From Deltaproteobacteria bacterium (GTDB lineage Bacteria; Desulfobacterota; GWC2-55-46; DRQE01): a DNA stretch of 32,296 nucleotides. The stretch lies in the NCBI GenBank assembly GCA_016219105.1, contig JACRCI010000019.1, positions 1 to 32,296 on the forward strand. The letters run 5' to 3'. The translations under genes and the position numbers were made by a program. Position 1 is the stretch's first letter. Each line of letters begins with the position of its first letter. This document shows positions 1 to 24,521 of this stretch, one piece after another. The notes beneath the pieces are model-generated. The model ran no database searches. It worked only from the letters and a program-made list of their open reading frames with translations, and had not been told where the DNA came from.

Positions 1-1
1 C

Positions 2-160
2 AAGGAGATTTCAACGAGACCTCCCAAGGAGACACCTTCAAAACCCTTTAAGATAAGAAAGAAGCGTATCCCCCCGCCAAAGGACCACCCTTGGAGGAAG
101 TATTCACACGCTGCCAAAAAGAGGACATTTCTATTTTGGCTTGACATTTGCAAGGAATAA
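2..160 (+). CDS. C-terminal fragment of a probable transposase (partial)
   Basis: A frame enters from the left edge and stays open for 52 codons to a TAA at 158-160. It reads as a basic, proline-rich tail with a PPPKDHPWRK segment followed by KRTFLFW. From memory, tails with a P..DHPWR motif close DDE transposases of the IS481/ISNCY-like integrase-core type, and the DNA GGACATTTCTATTTTG at 123-138 resembles the terminal repeat of such elements. No catalytic domain is in the window, so this assignment rests on the tail only. A second frame (1-51) is also open to a stop but is short and shows nothing recognisable. If correct, an insertion sequence ends directly upstream of the pilin promoter. 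Confidence 0.4.
   Translation, partial: KEISTRPPKETPSKPFKIRKKRIPPPKDHPWRKYSHAAKKRTFLFWLDICKE
137..152 (+). promoter_or_regulatory. sigma-54-like -24/-12 element upstream of flp
   Basis: TGGCTTG, four bases, then TTGCA. This matches the -24 (TGGC) and -12 (TTGCA) elements of the RpoN consensus with the correct spacing. Pilin genes are often RpoN-dependent in proteobacteria. Caution: it overlaps the end of the putative transposase frame, and no activator-binding site was identified, so a chance match is possible. Confidence 0.35.
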
Positions 161-2858: not shown

Positions 2859-3166
2859 AAATGACACTTACTCCCTCCCCCAAAGGGGAGAGGATATAAA
2901 AGGACACTTACTCCCTCCCTCTAAGGGGAGAGGATATAAAATGACACTTACTCCCTCCCTCGAAGGGGAGAGGAGGTAAAAAAGAGCAAGAGTAGAGGTA
3001 ATTATTGTCCTCTCTCCCCGAAAGGGATATGAAATGACATTTTTTTCCTCCTCCCAAAGAGAGAGGATATAAAATAGTATCTTTACTCCCTCCCTCGAAG
3101 GGGAGAGGAGACAAAAGGATATTTACCCCCTCTCCCCGTGGGGGAGAGGGCAGGGGTGAGGGGGAT
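2859..3166. repeat. Tandem array of 40-bp family A units
   Basis: This 349-bp spacer (2844-3192) holds no gene. The unit begins AAATGACACTTACTCCCTCC, then CTCGAAGGGGAGAGGATAT, and starts at 2859, 2899 and 2939 (exact 40-bp period). After a longer 93-bp unit the 40-bp period resumes at 3032 and 3072. The array closes with a full family A element (about 3127-3165, CCCCCTCTCCCC-gt-GGGGGAGAGGG plus GGTGAGGGGG). Each unit can form a CCCTCCC/GGGGAGAGG-type hairpin. Confidence 0.85.
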
Positions 3167-5938: not shown

Positions 5939-7072
5939 ATGCCCCAGAACATCCCGGTCGTCATAATAGACAGCGACGCCGACATGGCCGGCAGGATGAC
6001 CGGTTATATCAAGCGTCTCGGCGACCATGTCACGGTCGAGGGCGTGGCCGCGACATTTGAAAACGGTTTCGAGCTTATATACAGGAAAAGGCCCATGGTC
6101 GTGATACTGGAGGCCGGGCCCTCGGCCGAGCGTCTCCTTGAGAGGATGGCCGCCATACTCGACCGTTTTCCGCAGATGTCAATATTCGTCACGAGCGCGG
6201 ACAGTTCGGCCGACACCATACTCAAGGTCATGAGGGCCGGGGCCGCCGAATATCTCTTGAGGCCCGTCCTCGAGGTGGACCTCGAGTCGGCCCTCCAGAA
6301 GGTCGGCCGCCTCTATATAACCAAGCCGTCCGTCGAGGCGGCCAGGGGGCGGATATTCACGTTTTTCAGCCCCAAGGGCGGCGTCGGGGTCACCACCGTG
6401 GCGACGAATCTCGCCAGGGACATATCCACGGCCGCTGACAGGCCCACGCTCCTTGTGGACCTCGACCTTAACGCCGGGGACGTCACCACCTTCCTGAACA
6501 TGAAAACGAGCTATACCATAAGCGACGTGACCGCGAACATAAGCAGGCTGGACGAGAGTTTTCTGAAGGGCGTGATAGCGAAGCACGAATCCGGCGTCTA
6601 CGTCCTCTCGGAGCCGCAGAAGGTCGAGGACGCCTTCAACATACCGGGAGGGGACGTAAGGAAGCTTTTGAGGCTCCTCCGGGGCATGTTCGGCAGCATC
6701 GTCATTGACGCCGGGAGCGTCCTTAACGAGAGGTCAATGGCCGCGATAGAGATGGCCGACGTCATAGTCATGGTCTTTGTCATGAGCCTCCCGTGCATAA
6801 GGCACATACAGAGGCACCTTCGCTATTTCGAGGACATGGGGCTGGGAAAGGACAGGATACGGCTCGTGGTCAACAGGTATATAAAAAAAGGGGACATAGG
6901 CATTTCCGACGCCGAAAAGGTCCTTAACCACCCGGTCTTCTGGAGCATACCGAACGATTACGACTCGGCGATGGCCGCGCTCAACAAGGGCGTCCCCATA
7001 GGCATGTACAGGCCCAGGTCGCCTCTCAGCCTGTCCATAGAGGACCTGGCGAAGGAGATAGTAAAACTGTAA
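5939..7072 (+). CDS. cpaE: Tad pilus localisation ATPase CpaE/TadZ
   Basis: A 377-residue two-domain protein. Residues ~1-130 are a receiver-like domain (VVIIDSDADMAGRMTGYI, and SADTILKVMRAGAAEYLLRPV). The usual phospho-acceptor Asp position reads VVILEAG, so phosphorylation is unlikely, as in other TadZ/CpaE proteins. Residues ~137-377 form a ParA/MinD-like ATPase with a deviant Walker A (FFSPKGGVGVTTVATNLA, about 141-158), LLVDLDLNAGD, and IVIDAGSVLNERSMAAIEMAD. TadZ proteins mark the pole and recruit the Tad machine there. An AGGAG lies 13 nt before the ATG, a longer spacing than usual. The gene is followed by repeat-rich DNA before cpaF. Confidence 0.93.
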   Translation: MPQNIPVVIIDSDADMAGRMTGYIKRLGDHVTVEGVAATFENGFELIYRKRPMVVILEAGPSAERLLERMAAILDRFPQMSIFVTSADSSADTILKVMRAGAAEYLLRPVLEVDLESALQKVGRLYITKPSVEAARGRIFTFFSPKGGVGVTTVATNLARDISTAADRPTLLVDLDLNAGDVTTFLNMKTSYTISDVTANISRLDESFLKGVIAKHESGVYVLSEPQKVEDAFNIPGGDVRKLLRLLRGMFGSIVIDAGSVLNERSMAAIEMADVIVMVFVMSLPCIRHIQRHLRYFEDMGLGKDRIRLVVNRYIKKGDIGISDAEKVLNHPVFWSIPNDYDSAMAALNKGVPIGMYRPRSPLSLSIEDLAKEIVKL

Positions 7073-7256: not shown

Positions 7257-7260
7257 CCTA

Positions 7261-7507
7261 AATACAAGATGCTGAAACGAGTTCAGCATGACAACTTTAC
7301 TTCTGTCACCCTGAACTTGTTTCAGGGTCTGTACTTTAAGGCAGAAATACGGGATGATGAAATGAATTCAGCATGACAACTTTACTTCTGTCACCCTGAA
7401 CTTGTTTCAGGGTCTGTACTTCAAGGCAGAAATACGAGATGCTGAAATAAATTCAGCATGACAACTTTACTTCTGTCACCCTGAACTTGTTTCAGGGCAG
7501 CATGACA
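7261..7507. repeat. 85-bp tandem repeat of family C before cpaF
   Basis: Three head-to-tail units start at 7261, 7346 and 7431 (exact 85-bp period); the third is cut short at about 7507. Each reads AATAC.AGATGCTGAAA ... TTCAGCATGACAACTTTAC then TTCTGTCACCCTGAACTTG and TTTCAGGG. Each unit holds two inverted-repeat hairpins (GCTGAA/TTCAGC and CCCTGAA/TTCAGGG). Units differ by only a few bases, so the duplication is recent or homogenised. Confidence 0.9.
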
Positions 7508-9827: not shown

Positions 9828-10748
9828 ATGCCGCTCGTCGCGCCCATAATCCTGATATTCTTAGGAACGGCCGGGATGCTTTTTTCCGCCATATATCTGC
9901 TTTTCCCCGGCAAGACCGTACTCAAGGAGAGGCTTGAGAGCCTTGCCGACGAGGGGAAAGGGGCCGGGAAAACGCCGTTCGCAAGGACTCAGTCCAAGTG
10001 GCGGGGCTTCCTCGAACGTCTCGGGAAAAGGGTCCCCTTGAGGCCGCAGGAGTACGGCAAATACAGGAAGATGCTCGTTGGGGCCGGCATACCCGGGGAG
10101 ATGATGCCGGTGTTGATGGGGTTCAAGCTCGTGTTCGCGGTCGTTGCGCCGTGGGCATACATCGTGTTTTACGGCATACCGGCGAGGCAGGGCATGGTCA
10201 CGATAGCCGCCATTTCGGCGATATGCGCGGTTGTCGGTTTTATCGTCCCGTCCCTGTGGCTTTCGAGGATGGTAAAGAGGAGGCGGCTCAGGATATTCAA
10301 CGACCTCCCGGACATCCTCGACATAATGACGGTCTGCGTGGAGGCGGGCCTCTCGATTGACGCCTCGATGATAAGGATAGCCGAGGACGAGGAGTTCGGG
10401 AAAAGCCCGCTCGCCGGGGAGATGAAGATAGTCATAAGGGAGACGCGGCTCGGCAAGCCCAGGGGCGAGGCGTTACGGGACATGGCGGAGAAGGTCGGCG
10501 TTGACGACCTGAGGTCCTTCGCCGCGATGCTGGTGCAGACCGAGAGGCTCGGCACGAGCCTCGCCGAATCGCTCCGGGTGCATTCGGACTCGCTCAGGGT
10601 CAAAAGGAGGCAGAAGGCCGAGGAAGAGGCGGCAAAGACGACCGTAAAACTCGTCTTCCCGCTCGTGTTCCTCCTTTTCCCGGCCATGTTCGTGGTGATA
10701 CTCATACCCGCGGTAATAAGGATCGCGCGGCTGTTTGCCCAGTTTTAA
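9828..10748 (+). CDS. tadC: Tad pilus inner-membrane platform protein TadC
   Basis: A 306-residue GspF-family paralogue of TadB. Hydrophobic segments lie near residues 3-24, 88-108, 122-144 and 270-295. The soluble F-domain shows DLPDILDIMTVCVEAGLSIDASMIRIAED (about 160-188), the motif that distinguishes the TadB/TadC pair, and DDLRSFAAMLVQTERLGTSLAESLR (about 225-249). It starts at an ATG 19 nt after tadB with GGAG only 2 nt before it, an unusually short spacing, so coupling to tadB is likely. It is the last recognisable Tad gene in this cluster. Confidence 0.94.
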   Translation: MPLVAPIILIFLGTAGMLFSAIYLLFPGKTVLKERLESLADEGKGAGKTPFARTQSKWRGFLERLGKRVPLRPQEYGKYRKMLVGAGIPGEMMPVLMGFKLVFAVVAPWAYIVFYGIPARQGMVTIAAISAICAVVGFIVPSLWLSRMVKRRRLRIFNDLPDILDIMTVCVEAGLSIDASMIRIAEDEEFGKSPLAGEMKIVIRETRLGKPRGEALRDMAEKVGVDDLRSFAAMLVQTERLGTSLAESLRVHSDSLRVKRRQKAEEEAAKTTVKLVFPLVFLLFPAMFVVILIPAVIRIARLFAQF

Positions 10749-10933
10749 TCCCCTTTCGGGGTTTAATTCCCCGCGGCTTGCCGCGCATGTCGTTTCCTCT
10801 CCCCTTAGGGGAGAGGACTGAGGTGAGGGGGAAATGCCCGCAGGCTACGGCGCCCCCTCTAAGATACCCCAAAGTCAAGCTTTGGGGAGGTTCATTGTGC
10901 AGATGGACTTTTTCAGCAGCCTGAGAAAAAACG
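10749..10933. repeat. tadC-DUF192 spacer with hairpins and a family A copy
   Basis: Holds ATCCCCTTTCGGGGTTTAAT at the tadC end (weak terminator-like), a family A palindrome CCTCTCCCC-tta-GGGGAGAGG (about 10796-10816, with GAGGTGAGGGGG tail), a perfect hairpin CCCCAAAG-tcaag-CTTTGGGG (10867-10887) followed by GAGGTTCATT, and TTTTTCAGCAGCCTGAGAAA (about 10911-10930). Related GAACCTCCC and TTTTTTCAGCAGCCTGA sequences recur near 24.2-24.4 kb. Confidence 0.65.
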
Positions 10934-11309: not shown

Positions 11310-12959
11310 ATGGAATACCGGATAAGACCCCGCCTGATATACCTCCTCATACTCAACGCGGTCTTTGTCATCTATTTACAGACGTTTTCCTTCCCCTTCC
11401 ACTTCGACGACGCGAGCGGCATCGTGGATAACGTCAGTATCCGCGCCCTCGCTAATTTCCGGCCGTCGTGGACGGCCGGCGGGCCTCTGCCGGGGCAGAG
11501 ATACGTGGGTATGCTGTCCTTTGCGCTGAACTACCGGCTCGGCGGCCTCAACGTCCTGGGCTATCACATGGTGAATAACGCCGTCCATTTCATAAACGGC
11601 ATCCTCGTCCTGCATCTGGTGCTCCTGACGCTTGATACCCCGGCGATGGAGCGGCCTAACCAGCCGTCCTCGACGGCCAGCCAGCCGTCCTCGACGGTGT
11701 CGGCGCCCGAGCTTGCGGTGAGGTGGTTTATGGCCACGGCCGCAAGCCTTATATTCGTGGCGCACCCGGTACAGACGCAGGCCGTAACCTACATCGTCCA
11801 GCGGTTCACTTCCCTTGCGACCCTTTTTTACCTCCTTTCCATTATTCTTTACGCGAAGGCGAGGCTTGAGTCTCAGCCAACCGGCCCTGCCCTGGGCAAA
11901 AGGACCGCGCTCTTTTACGCCGGGTCGCTGGTGAGCGCGGTCCTGGCCATGAAGACAAAGGAGATAAGCTTCACCCTGCCTTTTGTGATAGCCCTTTACG
12001 AATTCGTCTTTTTCAAGGACGGCTGGAAAAAGAGGTTTCTTTATATCTTCCCCTTCCTCTTGACGCTCGCCATAATACCTCTAAGCGTAATCGGAGCGGG
12101 GGTGGCTGGAGAAAGACCCCTGGCCAATGTATTCAACGACCTGGCGAGGCCCCTGTACGAAAAGGCGGTCATCACCAGGGGCGTCTATCTCCTGACCCAG
12201 ACGAGGGTGATGGTGACCTACGTAAGGCTTCTGTTCCTTCCGGTAAACCAGAACCTCGACTACGACTACCCGCTTTACGGCTCTTTCCTTGAGCCGGGGG
12301 TGTTTTTATCGTTCCTGTTCCTCCTTTCCATTATCGCGGCCGCGCTGTATCTTTTCATGCGTTCGAGGAAGACCGGCAACGGCCACGGCCTTTTGATTTC
12401 TTTCGGGATATTCTGGTTTTTCATAACGCTCTCGGTTGAATCGAGCGTGATACCCATAAAGGACGTGATATTCGAGCACAGGCTGTATCTGCCGGGCATC
12501 GGTGCTATAATAGCTTTTACCTCTTGCGCGTTCTACGCGTTCGAGCGTATGAAAATAAACATGGCCGTCGCGGCAACGGTTTTAATCGCAACCACGGTCC
12601 TGCCGCTGGGAGCGGCCGCTTACATGAGGAACCGTATCTGGAGGGACGGGCTTACCCTCTGGTCGGACGTCGCGGCAAAGAGCCCGGCCAAGGCGAGAGG
12701 GCACATCAACCTCGGCCATTATTACGCCGACGCCGGACGGCTGGACGACGCCGTCCGGGAGATGAAACTCGCCATAAGGCTCAAACCGTCCGATGCCGCG
12801 GCGTATTACAACCTCGGCGTTGTCTACAGGGACAAGGGCATGGTGAACGACGCGATAGGGGAATTTAAAGAGGCGTTGAACATGGAGCCGTCCCATGAAA
12901 AGGCCAAAAAGGCGCTGAAATCCCTTTCCGCATTTCCGGGGCAGGCTGAAGGATCATGA
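11310..12959 (+). CDS. TMTC-like multi-pass membrane protein with C-terminal TPR repeats
   Basis: A 549-residue integral membrane protein. The N-terminus (YLLILNAVFVIYLQTFSFPF then HFDDASGIVDN) carries the acidic Asp-Asp pair after the first helix that is typical of GT-C / O-mannosyltransferase-like folds. HPVQTQAVTYIVQRF (about 150-165) is the hallmark of bacterial TMTC-like TPR proteins. About ten membrane helices run to residue ~435, followed by tandem TPR units (ARGHINLGHYYADAGRLDDAV, and AAYYNLGVVYRDKGMVNDAI, about 460-535). By family analogy it may glycosylate exported proteins, with the pilus a possible substrate; that is inference. Residues 117-130 (NQPSSTASQPSSTV) are two copies of the 21-bp palindromic unit inserted between membrane segments. 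Its stop overlaps the start of the next gene. Confidence 0.75.
   Translation: MEYRIRPRLIYLLILNAVFVIYLQTFSFPFHFDDASGIVDNVSIRALANFRPSWTAGGPLPGQRYVGMLSFALNYRLGGLNVLGYHMVNNAVHFINGILVLHLVLLTLDTPAMERPNQPSSTASQPSSTVSAPELAVRWFMATAASLIFVAHPVQTQAVTYIVQRFTSLATLFYLLSIILYAKARLESQPTGPALGKRTALFYAGSLVSAVLAMKTKEISFTLPFVIALYEFVFFKDGWKKRFLYIFPFLLTLAIIPLSVIGAGVAGERPLANVFNDLARPLYEKAVITRGVYLLTQTRVMVTYVRLLFLPVNQNLDYDYPLYGSFLEPGVFLSFLFLLSIIAAALYLFMRSRKTGNGHGLLISFGIFWFFITLSVESSVIPIKDVIFEHRLYLPGIGAIIAFTSCAFYAFERMKINMAVAATVLIATTVLPLGAAAYMRNRIWRDGLTLWSDVAAKSPAKARGHINLGHYYADAGRLDDAVREMKLAIRLKPSDAAAYYNLGVVYRDKGMVNDAIGEFKEALNMEPSHEKAKKALKSLSAFPGQAEGS
11658..11699 (+). repeat. Two in-frame copies of the 21-bp palindromic unit (family D)
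   Basis: AACCAGCCGTCCTCGACGGC then C, and AGCCAGCCGTCCTCGACGGT then G, directly tandem. The core GCCGTC-CTC-GACGGC is a hairpin. Encodes NQPSSTA-SQPSSTV. Confidence 0.85.
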
Positions 12960-15235
12960 GGATGAACGCGTTCCCATATTTCCTGTATTCACTGACGCTG
13001 CACGCCATTGTGCTGTGGTTTGTCTTCACGCTGTCGGTCTTCAGATTTGGTTTCGGTTCAAAGCCGTTTGAGTTTTATTTCGTTGACCTGACGGCCAACC
13101 AGCCGTCCTCGACGGCCCACCAGCCGTCTTTGACAGGGGGCGAAATGGCCGGGGCCAACGGGTTGGGGGAAAGCGGCGTGAAAGAGACGGTTAACCGGCC
13201 GTCCTCGACGGTCAGCCAACCGTCCTCGACGGTCAAAAAAGCGCGGGGGGTTGAAAAGGCGCAAACCGTCTCGACGGTGAAAGAAAAGGCGCGCACGGAA
13301 ACAACCAACAAGCCGTCCGCGACGGCCGGTGCAAGACCCAAGGAATCTTTCACTGAAACGAAGGTTTCTAAAGGGGCCGGGGGAGCGGCGGTAAGGTCTG
13401 CGGCAAAAAAGAGTTCTGGATCAATGAAAGCCGCCGGGAACGGCCGGATGGCCGGGGCGGGTGAGAGAAAAAATTTAGAGCTTAAAAAGGCCGGGGCCGC
13501 GCAAAAAAGTATGGAAGCAGGGCAGGAAAAGCCTCAGACGGCGCAGAGGCCGTCTGAAACCAAGGGAAAAGGCAAGCCGCCTGAAAGAGTGAAGAAGGCT
13601 CAGGCGCCGAAACCCATATCGTTTGAGGACTCAGACGGCGCTGGAGCTAAGGGCCGCGCCCCAGCTCAACCAACCGACCTTGCCGGCCAATTAGGCGTCC
13701 TCGACAGTGCGCCGCCCGCGCAGGTGACGTCGTTAAAGCCCGACGTGACCGGGGAGGAAGAAACAGAGGAGGCGGTCAAGCTCCGCGCCTCATCTCAACC
13801 AAGCGGCCCTGAGGGCCAATCGGCCGTCCAACCAGCCCAGACGGTAAGCCAGCCGGTTCTGACGGTCAACCAACCGGCCTTGCCGGCCAGCCAGCCGTCC
13901 TCGACGGTTGAGGCTGAAAAAGACCTTCCTGAAGCCGCAACTCAGCAAGCCGGCCCTGCCGATGAAAAACCCGCGGCGGCTGAGGCTGTAAAAAGAAACG
14001 AAATAACCATGCCACCCTCTTCTCCTCTGCCGTCATATCAACAGTCCTCGACGGCCAGCCAGACGACCGCTCCAGTATCTTCAAATGAAGCGGCGGCAAA
14101 GGACGCGGCGCCTCAAATGACCCCTACGCTTGAAGGGCCCTCTCAGGCGGTTCATTCCACCTCTGCCGCAGAAGTAAAAAAGGACGGAGGGATCGCGGAA
14201 TTTTTATCTCCGGCGATTGAAGAAGTTAAGAAAGAGGCCGTTACGGCCAACCAGCCGTCCTCGCCGGAGAAAGGAACGGACAGAAGGGTATCGGCAAAGG
14301 AGGCAAGAGGCAGCGAGGGCATGGGAACCCGTTATCTCAATACCTTGCCGGGAGGGTTCTTTTACAGCCTTCTTGAGGCATGCACAGTGGACGCGGCTGA
14401 TACGGCGTTTTTGAGCTACATGTCCCGCAACACGGCGTTTCCAAATGAAAAGAATTGGCTTACGACACAGGAAATCCTTGAGGCGCAGAAAGGACAGATG
14501 GCTGAGGGCCCGGCCGGGGGCCCGCGTGGCGGGTTGGATGACACGCGGGGCGGTTTTGCAACAGGGGCGACCGGGGACGGCGGAAGTCTTGCCGGCCCGC
14601 AAACCGGCCTCGCCGGTCTGCTCATAGCCGAGGAAGCCATGCCGTTGGCAATCAGGCAGTCCCTTGCCGAGAAAAAGAGGGACGAAGTCGTTTTAAACGA
14701 CATAAAGATGGAGCTTTCTTTAAAGGCCTTTGGGCCGTGGGATGACGTCTCGGCGTATCTCCTTAAAAGGGGCCATCCATTGGACAAAGGAGCGAAGGGG
14801 CAGAGGAAGCAGCAGCAGAGCACGGTGCCGCTTTCCGAAGATGCGGGCAAGGCCGCCGGGAAGAACAAAAGAGTGTTTTCAGTTGCAAGGGCCGAGGCCG
14901 GGGTATATACTTTTGTCATAGAAAACAAGGTGGAGCCGTCAGGGACGGCTGGCACGCCTCGCGGCGACGCGGGTGGGCCGTTGAAGACGGCCGGCGGGAA
15001 GGCATACGCGGGCAAACTCCTCATACGTTTCCGCGAGGGAAGGGCGGGCGCCAGGGTTAAGGAATACGCGGTGGATATACCGGCCGGCGGGGCGGTCAAA
15101 TTCAGGTTCGTATTCCCCGAGGCCGTTTTCTGGGATGATGAGGATTGGTTTTCCGGGGTCATAGAGGACGGGAACTCAATAACAAAATACAATTCCACGA
15201 ACGGGTTTTTCTGGAAGGAAGAGAAGGATTTCTGA
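12956..15235 (+). CDS. TonB-like single-pass protein with long repeat-rich linker; function unknown
   Basis: A 759-residue protein that I cannot assign to a family. The N-terminus is TonB-like: short cytosolic tail, a helix at about 8-33 with LTLHAIVLWFVFTLSVF, then PFEFYFVDL. Residues ~45-440 are low-complexity Ala/Lys/Glu/Pro/Ser sequence that would span the periplasm, peppered with copies of the 21-bp palindromic unit (NQPSSTA, SQPSSTV, NQPALPA). Residues ~450-620 and ~640-759 look folded; the C-terminal domain (YAGKLLIRFREG, YAVDIPAGGAVKFRFVFPEA, WFSGVIEDG) is probably beta-rich. It overlaps the stop of the TMTC-like gene by 4 nt and lies 34 nt before the AAA ATPase gene, so the three form one transcription unit. 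Such a protein could link the inner membrane to the outer membrane or pilus; this is inference. Confidence 0.6.
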   Translation: MRMNAFPYFLYSLTLHAIVLWFVFTLSVFRFGFGSKPFEFYFVDLTANQPSSTAHQPSLTGGEMAGANGLGESGVKETVNRPSSTVSQPSSTVKKARGVEKAQTVSTVKEKARTETTNKPSATAGARPKESFTETKVSKGAGGAAVRSAAKKSSGSMKAAGNGRMAGAGERKNLELKKAGAAQKSMEAGQEKPQTAQRPSETKGKGKPPERVKKAQAPKPISFEDSDGAGAKGRAPAQPTDLAGQLGVLDSAPPAQVTSLKPDVTGEEETEEAVKLRASSQPSGPEGQSAVQPAQTVSQPVLTVNQPALPASQPSSTVEAEKDLPEAATQQAGPADEKPAAAEAVKRNEITMPPSSPLPSYQQSSTASQTTAPVSSNEAAAKDAAPQMTPTLEGPSQAVHSTSAAEVKKDGGIAEFLSPAIEEVKKEAVTANQPSSPEKGTDRRVSAKEARGSEGMGTRYLNTLPGGFFYSLLEACTVDAADTAFLSYMSRNTAFPNEKNWLTTQEILEAQKGQMAEGPAGGPRGGLDDTRGGFATGATGDGGSLAGPQTGLAGLLIAEEAMPLAIRQSLAEKKRDEVVLNDIKMELSLKAFGPWDDVSAYLLKRGHPLDKGAKGQRKQQQSTVPLSEDAGKAAGKNKRVFSVARAEAGVYTFVIENKVEPSGTAGTPRGDAGGPLKTAGGKAYAGKLLIRFREGRAGARVKEYAVDIPAGGAVKFRFVFPEAVFWDDEDWFSGVIEDGNSITKYNSTNGFFWKEEKDF
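13097..13138 (+). repeat. Family D units 1-2 in the TonB-like gene
   Basis: Two adjacent 21-nt units reading NQPSSTA and HQPSLTG. The first has a perfect GCCGTC-CTC-GACGGC core; the second has decayed (GCCGTC-TTT-GACAGG). Confidence 0.8.
13193..13327 (+). repeat. Family D units 3-6 in the TonB-like gene
   Basis: NRPSSTV and SQPSSTV in tandem (13193-13234, the second with an ACCGTC-CTC-GACGGT core), a degenerate QTVSTV (about 13262-13279), and NKPSATA (13307-13327, core GCCGTC-CGC-GACGGC). Confidence 0.75.
13847..13909 (+). repeat. Three tandem family D units in the TonB-like gene
   Basis: SQPVLTV, NQPALPA and SQPSSTV, each exactly 21 nt, preceded by a decayed run (about 13792-13846). Further isolated copies in the same gene are at about 14036-14062, 14249-14269, 14603-14617 (ACCGGC-CTC-GCCGGT, read in a different frame) and 14935-14949 (GCCGTC-AGG-GACGGC). 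Confidence 0.75.
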
Positions 15236-17175: not shown

Positions 17176-17211
17176 CGTCCAGCCAGCCGTCCTCGACGGC
17201 CAACCGGTTTT
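17176..17211 (+). repeat. Family D palindromic unit upstream of the DedA gene
   Basis: CCAGCCAGCCGTCCTCGACG then GCCAACCGG, with the perfect core GCCGTC-CTC-GACGGC at 17186-17200. It is noncoding here and ends 3 nt before the DedA start codon, where a ribosome site would normally be. Confidence 0.8.
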
Positions 17212-17213
17212 AA

Positions 17214-17810
17214 ATGCCCGACATCTCAGGACTCATAGGCCACTTCCCTTACCTTGGGCTTTTTGGCCTCCTTCTTCTCGGGGGCTTCGGCCTGCCGTTC
17301 CCCGAGGACGCCACCCTTATATTCTGCGGCTTTTTGTTTTCCCGCCACGCGATAAACCCCTTTTACGCGCTGCCGGTGGTATACGCCGGCCTGCTCTCGT
17401 CCGACGTCATGCTGTATTTCTGGGGCAGGAAATACGGCCGCAGGATACTCAGCCACCCGAGATTCCACAGGATCCTTCCGCCGGAAAAACTCTCCGTCCT
17501 CGAGGCGCGGTTCAACAGACACAGCATTTTGTTCATAGTCTTCGGGAGGCATATCGTCGGGCTGAGGGGCCAGGTGTTCCTCGTGGCCGGGATAATGCGG
17601 ATGCCGCTTTTGAAATTCATCGTAACCGACAGCGTCTCGGCCGTTTTTTCCGTGGCCGTGATGGTCGGCGCCGGCTACATGGGGGGGCGCTATCTCGGCA
17701 TGATAAAGGATTATCTGAGGTGGGTCAAATACGCCGGCATAGCCATTATCCCTGTCGCGGTCTATCTAATTTTCAAATACCTTAAATCAAAGAAAAACAG
17801 CCCCCTGTAG
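17214..17810 (+). CDS. DedA-family membrane protein
   Basis: A 198-residue inner-membrane protein of the DedA (SNARE-associated / VTT) family, implicated in lipid-carrier flipping and membrane homeostasis. The family motifs are present: GGFGLPFPEDATLIFCGFLF (about 23-42, with the acidic P.PE motif), DVMLYFWGRKYGRRIL (about 63-78) and FGRHIVGLRGQVFLVAGIMRM (about 103-123, with the conserved Arg/Gly block). It has four to five membrane segments and a lysine-rich C-terminus, and the length is normal. A palindromic repeat sits where a Shine-Dalgarno is expected and none is visible. It is convergent with the Hsp70-like gene, only 19 nt apart. Confidence 0.88.
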   Translation: MPDISGLIGHFPYLGLFGLLLLGGFGLPFPEDATLIFCGFLFSRHAINPFYALPVVYAGLLSSDVMLYFWGRKYGRRILSHPRFHRILPPEKLSVLEARFNRHSILFIVFGRHIVGLRGQVFLVAGIMRMPLLKFIVTDSVSAVFSVAVMVGAGYMGGRYLGMIKDYLRWVKYAGIAIIPVAVYLIFKYLKSKKNSPL

Positions 17811-24044: not shown

Positions 24045-24521
24045 ATCCATTTCGTCACAACTTGAAGAATTTTCTACGTATTTTTAACGGCCATCGGCCA
24101 TATAGCAGGCACTGAAAAACTCGGAATTCACTCAGGCCGACCCATCCTGAAAGAGCCTGCCCTGAACTTGTTTCAGGGATGGGTCGGATGGATTTTTTCA
24201 GCAGCCTGATAGGGGAACATCGGCGGGAGTTTAACAGGAACGGGGGCCAATGTCCATGCAATAAAAAAAGATTTTTGTTGCGCCCTTTCCGGGCGTTCCT
24301 TATTCTTGATCTTGAAAGAGCCGAAAACCCGGATCTCGATCTTCTCGCCCAATGAACCTCCCAAAAGCCAAGCTGCGGAGTATTGAAGACCTAAATGCTT
24401 AAAAAATCAACCAACCGTCTACGACGGTCAACCAACCGGCCTCGCCGGTCTCGAAGCAAGTTTGCCGTAGGAAGGTTCATTTATCAAAGCCTTATCCCGT
24501 CAATTTCCTCTTTTTTTGTTT
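24045..24521. other. Gene-free divergent spacer with repeat fragments
   Basis: No convincing gene is found. It contains an imperfect inverted repeat (CCGACCCATCCTGAAA ... TTTCAGGGATGGGTCGG, about 24138-24187) enclosing a family C core (CCCTGAACTTGTTTCAGGG), then TTTTTTCAGCAGCCTGA as also seen near 10.9 kb, AATGAACCTCCC (about 24352-24363, shared with 27.75 kb and, inverted, with 10.9 kb), two family D palindromes, and AGGTTCATT close to the operator region. Confidence 0.65.
24408..24452 (+). repeat. Two noncoding family D palindromes
   Basis: ACCGTC-TAC-GACGGT (24414-24428) and ACCGGC-CTC-GCCGGT (24435-24449), exactly 21 nt apart. The arms of both are perfectly paired although their sequences differ, consistent with compensatory change. 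Confidence 0.8.

Follow-up and report, generated by a model that had tools for sequence, protein, structure and literature searches.

The small dispersed repeats SDR1-8 of Nostoc and its relatives, attributed to Elhai et al. in 2008, are reportedly 21-27 nt long and present in high copy number. They are also said to fold into hairpins with compensatory changes, to be restricted to a lineage, and to insert in a nested or self-targeting manner, and their mover is reportedly unknown. The element described here is a 21-bp unit that recurs in the window (the whole 32,296-bp stretch of DNA analyzed). By description, it most resembles the Nostoc repeats, being likewise a dispersed element in the range of 21-27 nt with compensatory changes in its stem. 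Judged by the same description, it appears to differ from them in sequence and belongs to another bacterial lineage, and 202 of its 294 placed copies lie inside protein genes. A passage in one article puts SDR5 precisely inside the octamer HIP1 (PMC4390886), and the Nostoc repeats are also cited in a passage of another (PMC3116915).

The initial annotation had likened the unit, in principle, to the Rickettsia palindromic elements. The likeness holds at the functional level: similar to RPE-1, -4, and -6, the unit is a palindrome lying in frame in unrelated protein genes whose function is apparently kept. It does not extend to size and host, as RPE-1, at about 100-150 bp, greatly exceeds the unit in length and the host of the RPEs is an obligate intracellular alphaproteobacterium. 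RPE-4 and -6 have been classed as CGTC REPs (PMC3733652). GTAG- and CGTC-tagged REPs are palindromes of 20-40 bp with a short unpaired tag, which are mainly intergenic and form head-to-head dimers, although some are found within genes for repair and tRNA modification and, as palindromic insertions kept in frame, resemble the unit in how they work; the CGTC REPs are without a dedicated transposase and have a stem of 8-9 bp and a loop of 4-5 nt (PMC3733652). In the 21-bp unit, the foot of the hairpin reads CCAG, CCAA, or CACT instead of the 5' GTAG (GT[AG]G) of REPs and REPINs, and the Y1 HUH transposase of RAYT-moved REPs and REPINs was not found. The unit also has no terminal CGTC, and its stem of 5-6 bp and loop of 3 nt are arranged head-to-tail at 21 bp.

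PARCELs are palindromic repeats that encode protein segments and show evidence of mobility; they are 25-residue amphipathic repeats, tandem in particular ORFs, and are read as one protein motif (PMC2996958), whereas the peptide encoded by the 21-bp unit is arbitrary. MITEs possess terminal inverted repeats, a target-site duplication, and a known transposase, whereas the unit inserts flush, with an ambiguity of at most 2 bp at one site. Because the unit shows the defining features of neither GTAG REPs nor CGTC REPs, we treat it as a new family of dispersed, very small palindromic elements, set apart from the SDRs and RPEs by their descriptions. It would rank with the smallest mobile elements on record, and it is mostly intragenic, which most REPs and MITEs are not.

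Sequence, hairpin, and distribution of the 21-bp unit

The unit has a length of exactly 21 bp (YCNNCCARCCGKC-CTC-GMCGG), with the consensus YCNNCCAR-CCGKC-CTC-GMCGG. All copies that had been noted in two adjacent genes of the window (genes A and B; 11658-14949) were found in place, and the two intergenic sites that close Table 1 are additions to them. The unit is not confined to these genes but dispersed throughout the genome, which was searched as 1.87 Mb in 137 contigs (95% complete). The 13-bp core CCGTCCTCGACGG has 135 exact matches genome-wide, compared with 0 for the reversed pattern used as a control, and the stricter 21-mer CCNNCCAGCCGKCCTYGMCGG has 168. A profile scan of 850 kb, partly picked for containing matches, gave 352 copies at a score of at least 18 versus 4 in the reversed control, which corresponds to ∼470 genomic copies when scaled by 168/124 strict matches. 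In 186 kb of contigs picked regardless of matches, 67 low-threshold copies were found where ∼22 are expected from the control, giving an estimate of ∼450 copies in the genome. Overall, we estimate about 450-500 copies per genome. An Rfam search of the unit returned no family at the gathering score.

Table 1. Positions of genes A and B and of the 21-bp units in the window
Feature	Position	Strand	Remarks
Gene A, membrane protein with C-terminal TPR, 549 aa	11310-12959	+	Two insertion sites
Gene A, single unit, opposite to gene orientation	11463-11483	-	Profile score 19.7
Gene A, two tandem units	11656-11697	+	NQPSSTA-SQPSSTV
Gene B, 759 aa, long low-complexity linker	12956-15235	+	∼12 units
Gene B, two tandem units	13095-13136	+	NQPSSTA and HQPSLTG; starts 13095, 13116
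Gene B, two tandem units	13191-13232	+	NRPSSTV and SQPSSTV; starts 13191, 13212
Gene B, single unit	13305-13325	+	
Gene B, weak antisense-oriented unit	13431-13451	-	Score 16.6
Gene B, unit followed by degenerate unit	13666-13707	+	Unit 13666-13686; degenerate unit CCAATTAGGCGTCCTCGACAG 13687-13707 in another frame
Gene B, two tandem units	13866-13907	+	Stems CCGGC/GCCGG, then CCGTC/GACGG; starts 13866, 13887
Gene B, single unit	14247-14267	+	Stem with T-C mismatch
Gene B, unit with re-paired stem	14521-14541	-	CCCGC/GCGGG
Gene B, unit CCCGCAAACCGGCCTCGCCGG	14596-14616	+	Read in Q-T-G-L-A-G frame
Gene B, degenerate copies	∼14936, ∼14978	-	
Intergenic unit upstream of gene at 17214	17179-17199	+	
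Two intergenic units within copy of ∼100-bp repeat	24407-24448	+	Three paralogous copies represent the empty site

The stem of 5-6 bp and the 3-nt loop are kept through paired substitutions. A stem of 5 with a loop of 3 is found in 251 of the ∼275 perfect hairpins that follow the prefix; partial units are rare, and the unpaired 5' part CCNNCCAG is strongly conserved. Stem variants include CCGTC/GACGG, CCGGC/GCCGG, CCCGC/GCGGG, CCAGC/GCTGG, and CCATC/GATGG. When only the 5' part and the outer CC/GG were used to select copies, disregarding inner pairing, 105 of 139 distinct sequences had a perfectly paired inner stem, compared with a mean of 39 and a maximum of 53 in 1000 shuffles. An ungapped alignment of 104 of these copies, thinned by hand, features double changes in 64 cells (shuffle mean 26) and a covariation score of 0.310 (0.136 in shuffles and no more than 0.142 in slid alignments); the 139-sequence test is the cleaner of the two, because the rows omitted from the alignment include poorly paired copies. 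Covariation far exceeds both the shuffles and the slid controls. The pairing scheme of the initial annotation stands for the inner pairs, with columns 11-19 and 12-18 strong, whereas its outermost A-T/G-C pair is weak and unpaired in 25 of the 104 copies. Covariation alone is no proof of selection, however, because quasipalindrome correction can also produce it, one arm serving as the template for the other.

Two variants of the hairpin were observed. A subfamily in which CACT replaces CCAG before the stem (CCNNCACTCCGTC...) has lost the outer pair and occurs genome-wide, for example at L034:4662-4682 and L041:8840-8880. A hairpin with a longer stem, CCTGCCTG-CAG/CTG-CAGGCAGG, carries the same kind of prefix or abuts units (L035 near 5790 and L047 near 13730) and is possibly a sister family of 27 nt.

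No member of the family was found in 62 other genomes of the class, with the exception of two contigs (C41 and C60) of the 6%-contaminated assembly G018. The 140-bp repeats on these contigs are 99-100% identical to those of the genome studied, and the C41 genes are present in G018 a second time, in a copy of its own; the copies of the unit therefore probably represent contamination from this or a sister organism. The 140-bp repeat is found at window positions 1-140, at the contig ends L031, L039, L064, and L201, and also in L184 and L185 (G018, an order-level relative). The few isolated weak matches found elsewhere lie near chance level, and two matches to the 13-mer core in the related genome G008 were rejected as family members, as they are without the 5' part and resemble ordinary coding sequence. 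Across 84,980 species genomes, a set that may leave out records of the genome studied itself, the two-unit pattern gave seven single matches, six in actinobacteria and one in Duganella, and the tandem pattern had no match in any cyanobacterium. Neither the single matches in Streptomyces, Brevibacterium, and Duganella nor plasmid matches (E ≥ 0.1) were accepted as true copies, because they resemble chance occurrences in GC-rich sequence. Viral contigs contained 22 single matches.

Insertion sites, arrays, and host proteins

Filled and empty sites can be compared in an intergenic repeat of ∼100 bp (AATGAACCTCCCC...GAGGAATYAAACCC...) that is found in 19 places of the scanned sequence, some copies of which carry the unit at one internal site. 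Copies lie at window positions 10744-10896 (minus strand) and 24351-24463, at L186:11145-11244, at L189:3469-3591 and 6829-6929, and elsewhere; the copy at window position 10744 has a different insert at the internal site of the unit. In a first subfamily, the empty site CCAAACAAC^TTAAAGC corresponds to the filled site CCAAACAAC-CYAACCAGCCGTCCTCGACGG-TTAAAGC. In a second, the empty site AAAAAG^TCTCGAAG is occupied by one unit in L189 and by two units in L184 and in the window copy listed in Table 1. Insertion is flush and comprises whole units of exactly 21n bp (21, 42, 63 bp, and so on). There is no clear target duplication: none is seen in the first filled/empty case, and at most a 2-bp TC ambiguity in the second. 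The flanks of isolated copies likewise exhibit no identity diagonal and no duplication signal, which rules out a strict target-site duplication.

Isolated copies tend to follow (A/C)CGG or to precede YC, that is, to occupy a site that shares the ends of the element. In 39 of 81 isolated copies, at least 4 nt of the left flank agree with the (A/C)CGG end of the element itself (background ∼1%), and in 34 of 81 the right flank is YC (background ∼8%). This preference is not strict, because 14 of the 81 copies have neither end homology and the two best-resolved empty sites are without CGG on the left.

Arrays are head-to-tail with a spacing of exactly 21 bp. Array neighbors are identical at 17.0 of 21 positions, compared with 16.4 for shuffled partners, and only 6% of neighbors are identical throughout. 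Because neighbors are barely more alike than random copies, the arrays do not stem mainly from slippage. They are better explained by repeated insertion at a self-recreated target; old slippage followed by divergence retains a small residual probability.

A simple coding-potential gene caller (88% coding) was used to place the 294 copies. The 88 copies between genes correspond to an approximately threefold higher density than inside genes. Within genes, copies occupy all six frames (6, 30, 53, 38, 61, and 14 copies) in both orientations; the consensus unit is stop-free in each of them, and every unit adds exactly seven amino acids. The frames are used very unevenly (chi-square 68), in proportions close to those expected from the codon phase of (A/C)CGG sites (10.3, 5 df), so that no special peptide need be favored. 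A scrambled tetramer fits almost equally (12.9), and the frame bias therefore does not prove an (A/C)CGG target. Because six frames are used and copies also occur between genes, it is the DNA or RNA palindrome that spreads and not the peptide, as the initial annotation had proposed.

We compared the host proteins with ∼834 kb of G008. At 45-73% identity, inserts of 7 or 14 residues, corresponding to single or paired units, were found in TrpE, TilS, homoserine dehydrogenase, GlnE, MnmE, a MiaB-like protein, a sugar epimerase, and others, with some alignments off by a residue or two from 7 or 14. GltX has a 14-residue insert relative to its counterpart and a similarly placed gap in the alignment with a solved glutamyl-tRNA synthetase. 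For TopA, a solved topoisomerase shows a short gap around the unit, and TrpE aligned with its closest solved structure shows no clean gap at the unit. In the window, an orthologue of gene A (L204, 45% identical) has a 13-residue gap (TPALKSYNM-------------RPEV) where the two tandem units sit; gene B has no Pfam match. Orthologues without the unit and with gaps of 7 or 14 amino acids thus exist, that of gene A included. GltX, TopA, MnmE, TrpE, GlnE, and others provide a dense natural record of tolerated seven-residue insertions in essential enzymes, and the unit illustrates the lengthening of proteins by selfish DNA.

Possible routes of spread

The genome scan, the orthologue comparison, and the covariation analysis, all proposed in the initial annotation, turned out in favor of its interpretation as a whole. 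We are highly confident that the unit is a dispersed, structure-conserved insertion element, and it is probably a mobile palindromic element. It is best read as what appears to be a recently mobile, hairpin-dependent miniature element; we infer recent movement rather than observe it, because the nearest relatives are other genera.

We tentatively suggest that the hairpin is joined as a single strand in a site-directed manner. It would form from single-stranded DNA (RNA being less likely), and a cellular or other enzyme would then attach it 3' of a GG-type site. The element's own (A/C)CGG end would recreate the target at each insertion, and new copies would therefore stack head-to-tail behind old ones. 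Host selection would merely filter the outcome, and insertions in permissive protein loops would survive, because 21 bp is a multiple of three and the unit is stop-free in six frames. That the 21-bp hairpin is the complete transposing unit, which an enzyme joins 3' of the self-recreated (A/C)CGG so that copies pile up head-to-tail and proteins of every functional class grow by seven-residue steps, is conceivable but somewhat more doubtful.

In the 95%-complete assembly, neither PF01797 (Y1_Tnp, RAYT/IS200 type), for which a control search was positive in 5 of 14 genomes, nor a reverse transcriptase had a match. PF04986 (Y2 transposase) had no match here, and its control was likewise without a match anywhere. 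The absence of Y1_Tnp/RAYT and of reverse transcriptase counts against the reading as a mobile element, and a mover encoded in the 5% of the genome that the assembly lacks, or supplied by the host's own enzymes, is possible. The unit is thus a test case for the movement of tiny repeats without an evident transposase or reverse transcriptase.

The absence of RAYT and reverse transcriptase would be expected if no dedicated enzyme were involved and the unit spread through template switching during replication or through non-allelic conversion, an alternative that we regard as unlikely yet deserving serious attention. A nascent 3' end in (A/C)CGG would jump to a unit boundary, copy one or more units, and return via short homology. 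Of the 81 isolated copies, 67 indeed have short homology at one junction, multiples of the whole unit would follow automatically, and stem covariation could stem from quasipalindrome correction, one arm being copied from the other. However, partial units would not be expected to be as rare as they are, nor the standard stem and loop as prevalent; the 14 copies without junction homology, as well as the filled/empty pair CAAC^TTAAAG, do not fit, and an unusual replication habit would be needed in one genome of the class.

A functional hairpin or recognition sequence kept by selection, such as a protein-binding site, an uptake-like sequence, or an RNA element, could account for the strong conservation of the 5' part and the structure, but it is highly improbable in view of copies that are net 21-bp insertions and not mutated resident sequence, that vary in orientation and gene position, and that relatives do without. 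Less probable again is a RAYT-moved REP family whose transposase lies outside the assembled sequence or has already been lost. In its favor, the assembly is only 95% complete, and the single hairpin, the conserved unpaired 5' tag, the flush insertion, and the tetranucleotide-like site resemble the geometry of IS200/IS605 and REPs (PMC6006769), whereas the PF01797 result, the lack of a GTAG tag, and the head-to-tail arrays in place of head-to-head dimers argue against it. That linker proteins contain a peptide-coding repeat (NQPSSTA) shaped by slippage or selection, the case that the initial annotation had set against its own reading and that the tandem copies in the window's linkers might suggest, has practically no probability, as copies occur in six frames, between genes, and outside genes A and B and their frames, housekeeping enzymes are hit, and array neighbors are nearly as different as random units.

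The window also contains other repeats. An 85-bp tandem repeat with palindromes (CCTGAACTTGTTTCAGG) is located at 7260-7497; this palindrome has 17 strand-summed matches in 566 kb of the genome studied and none in the 834 kb of G008. Tandem repeats of 40-41 bp, based on CTCCCTC...GGGGAGAG, are located at 2853-2981 and 3061-3149.
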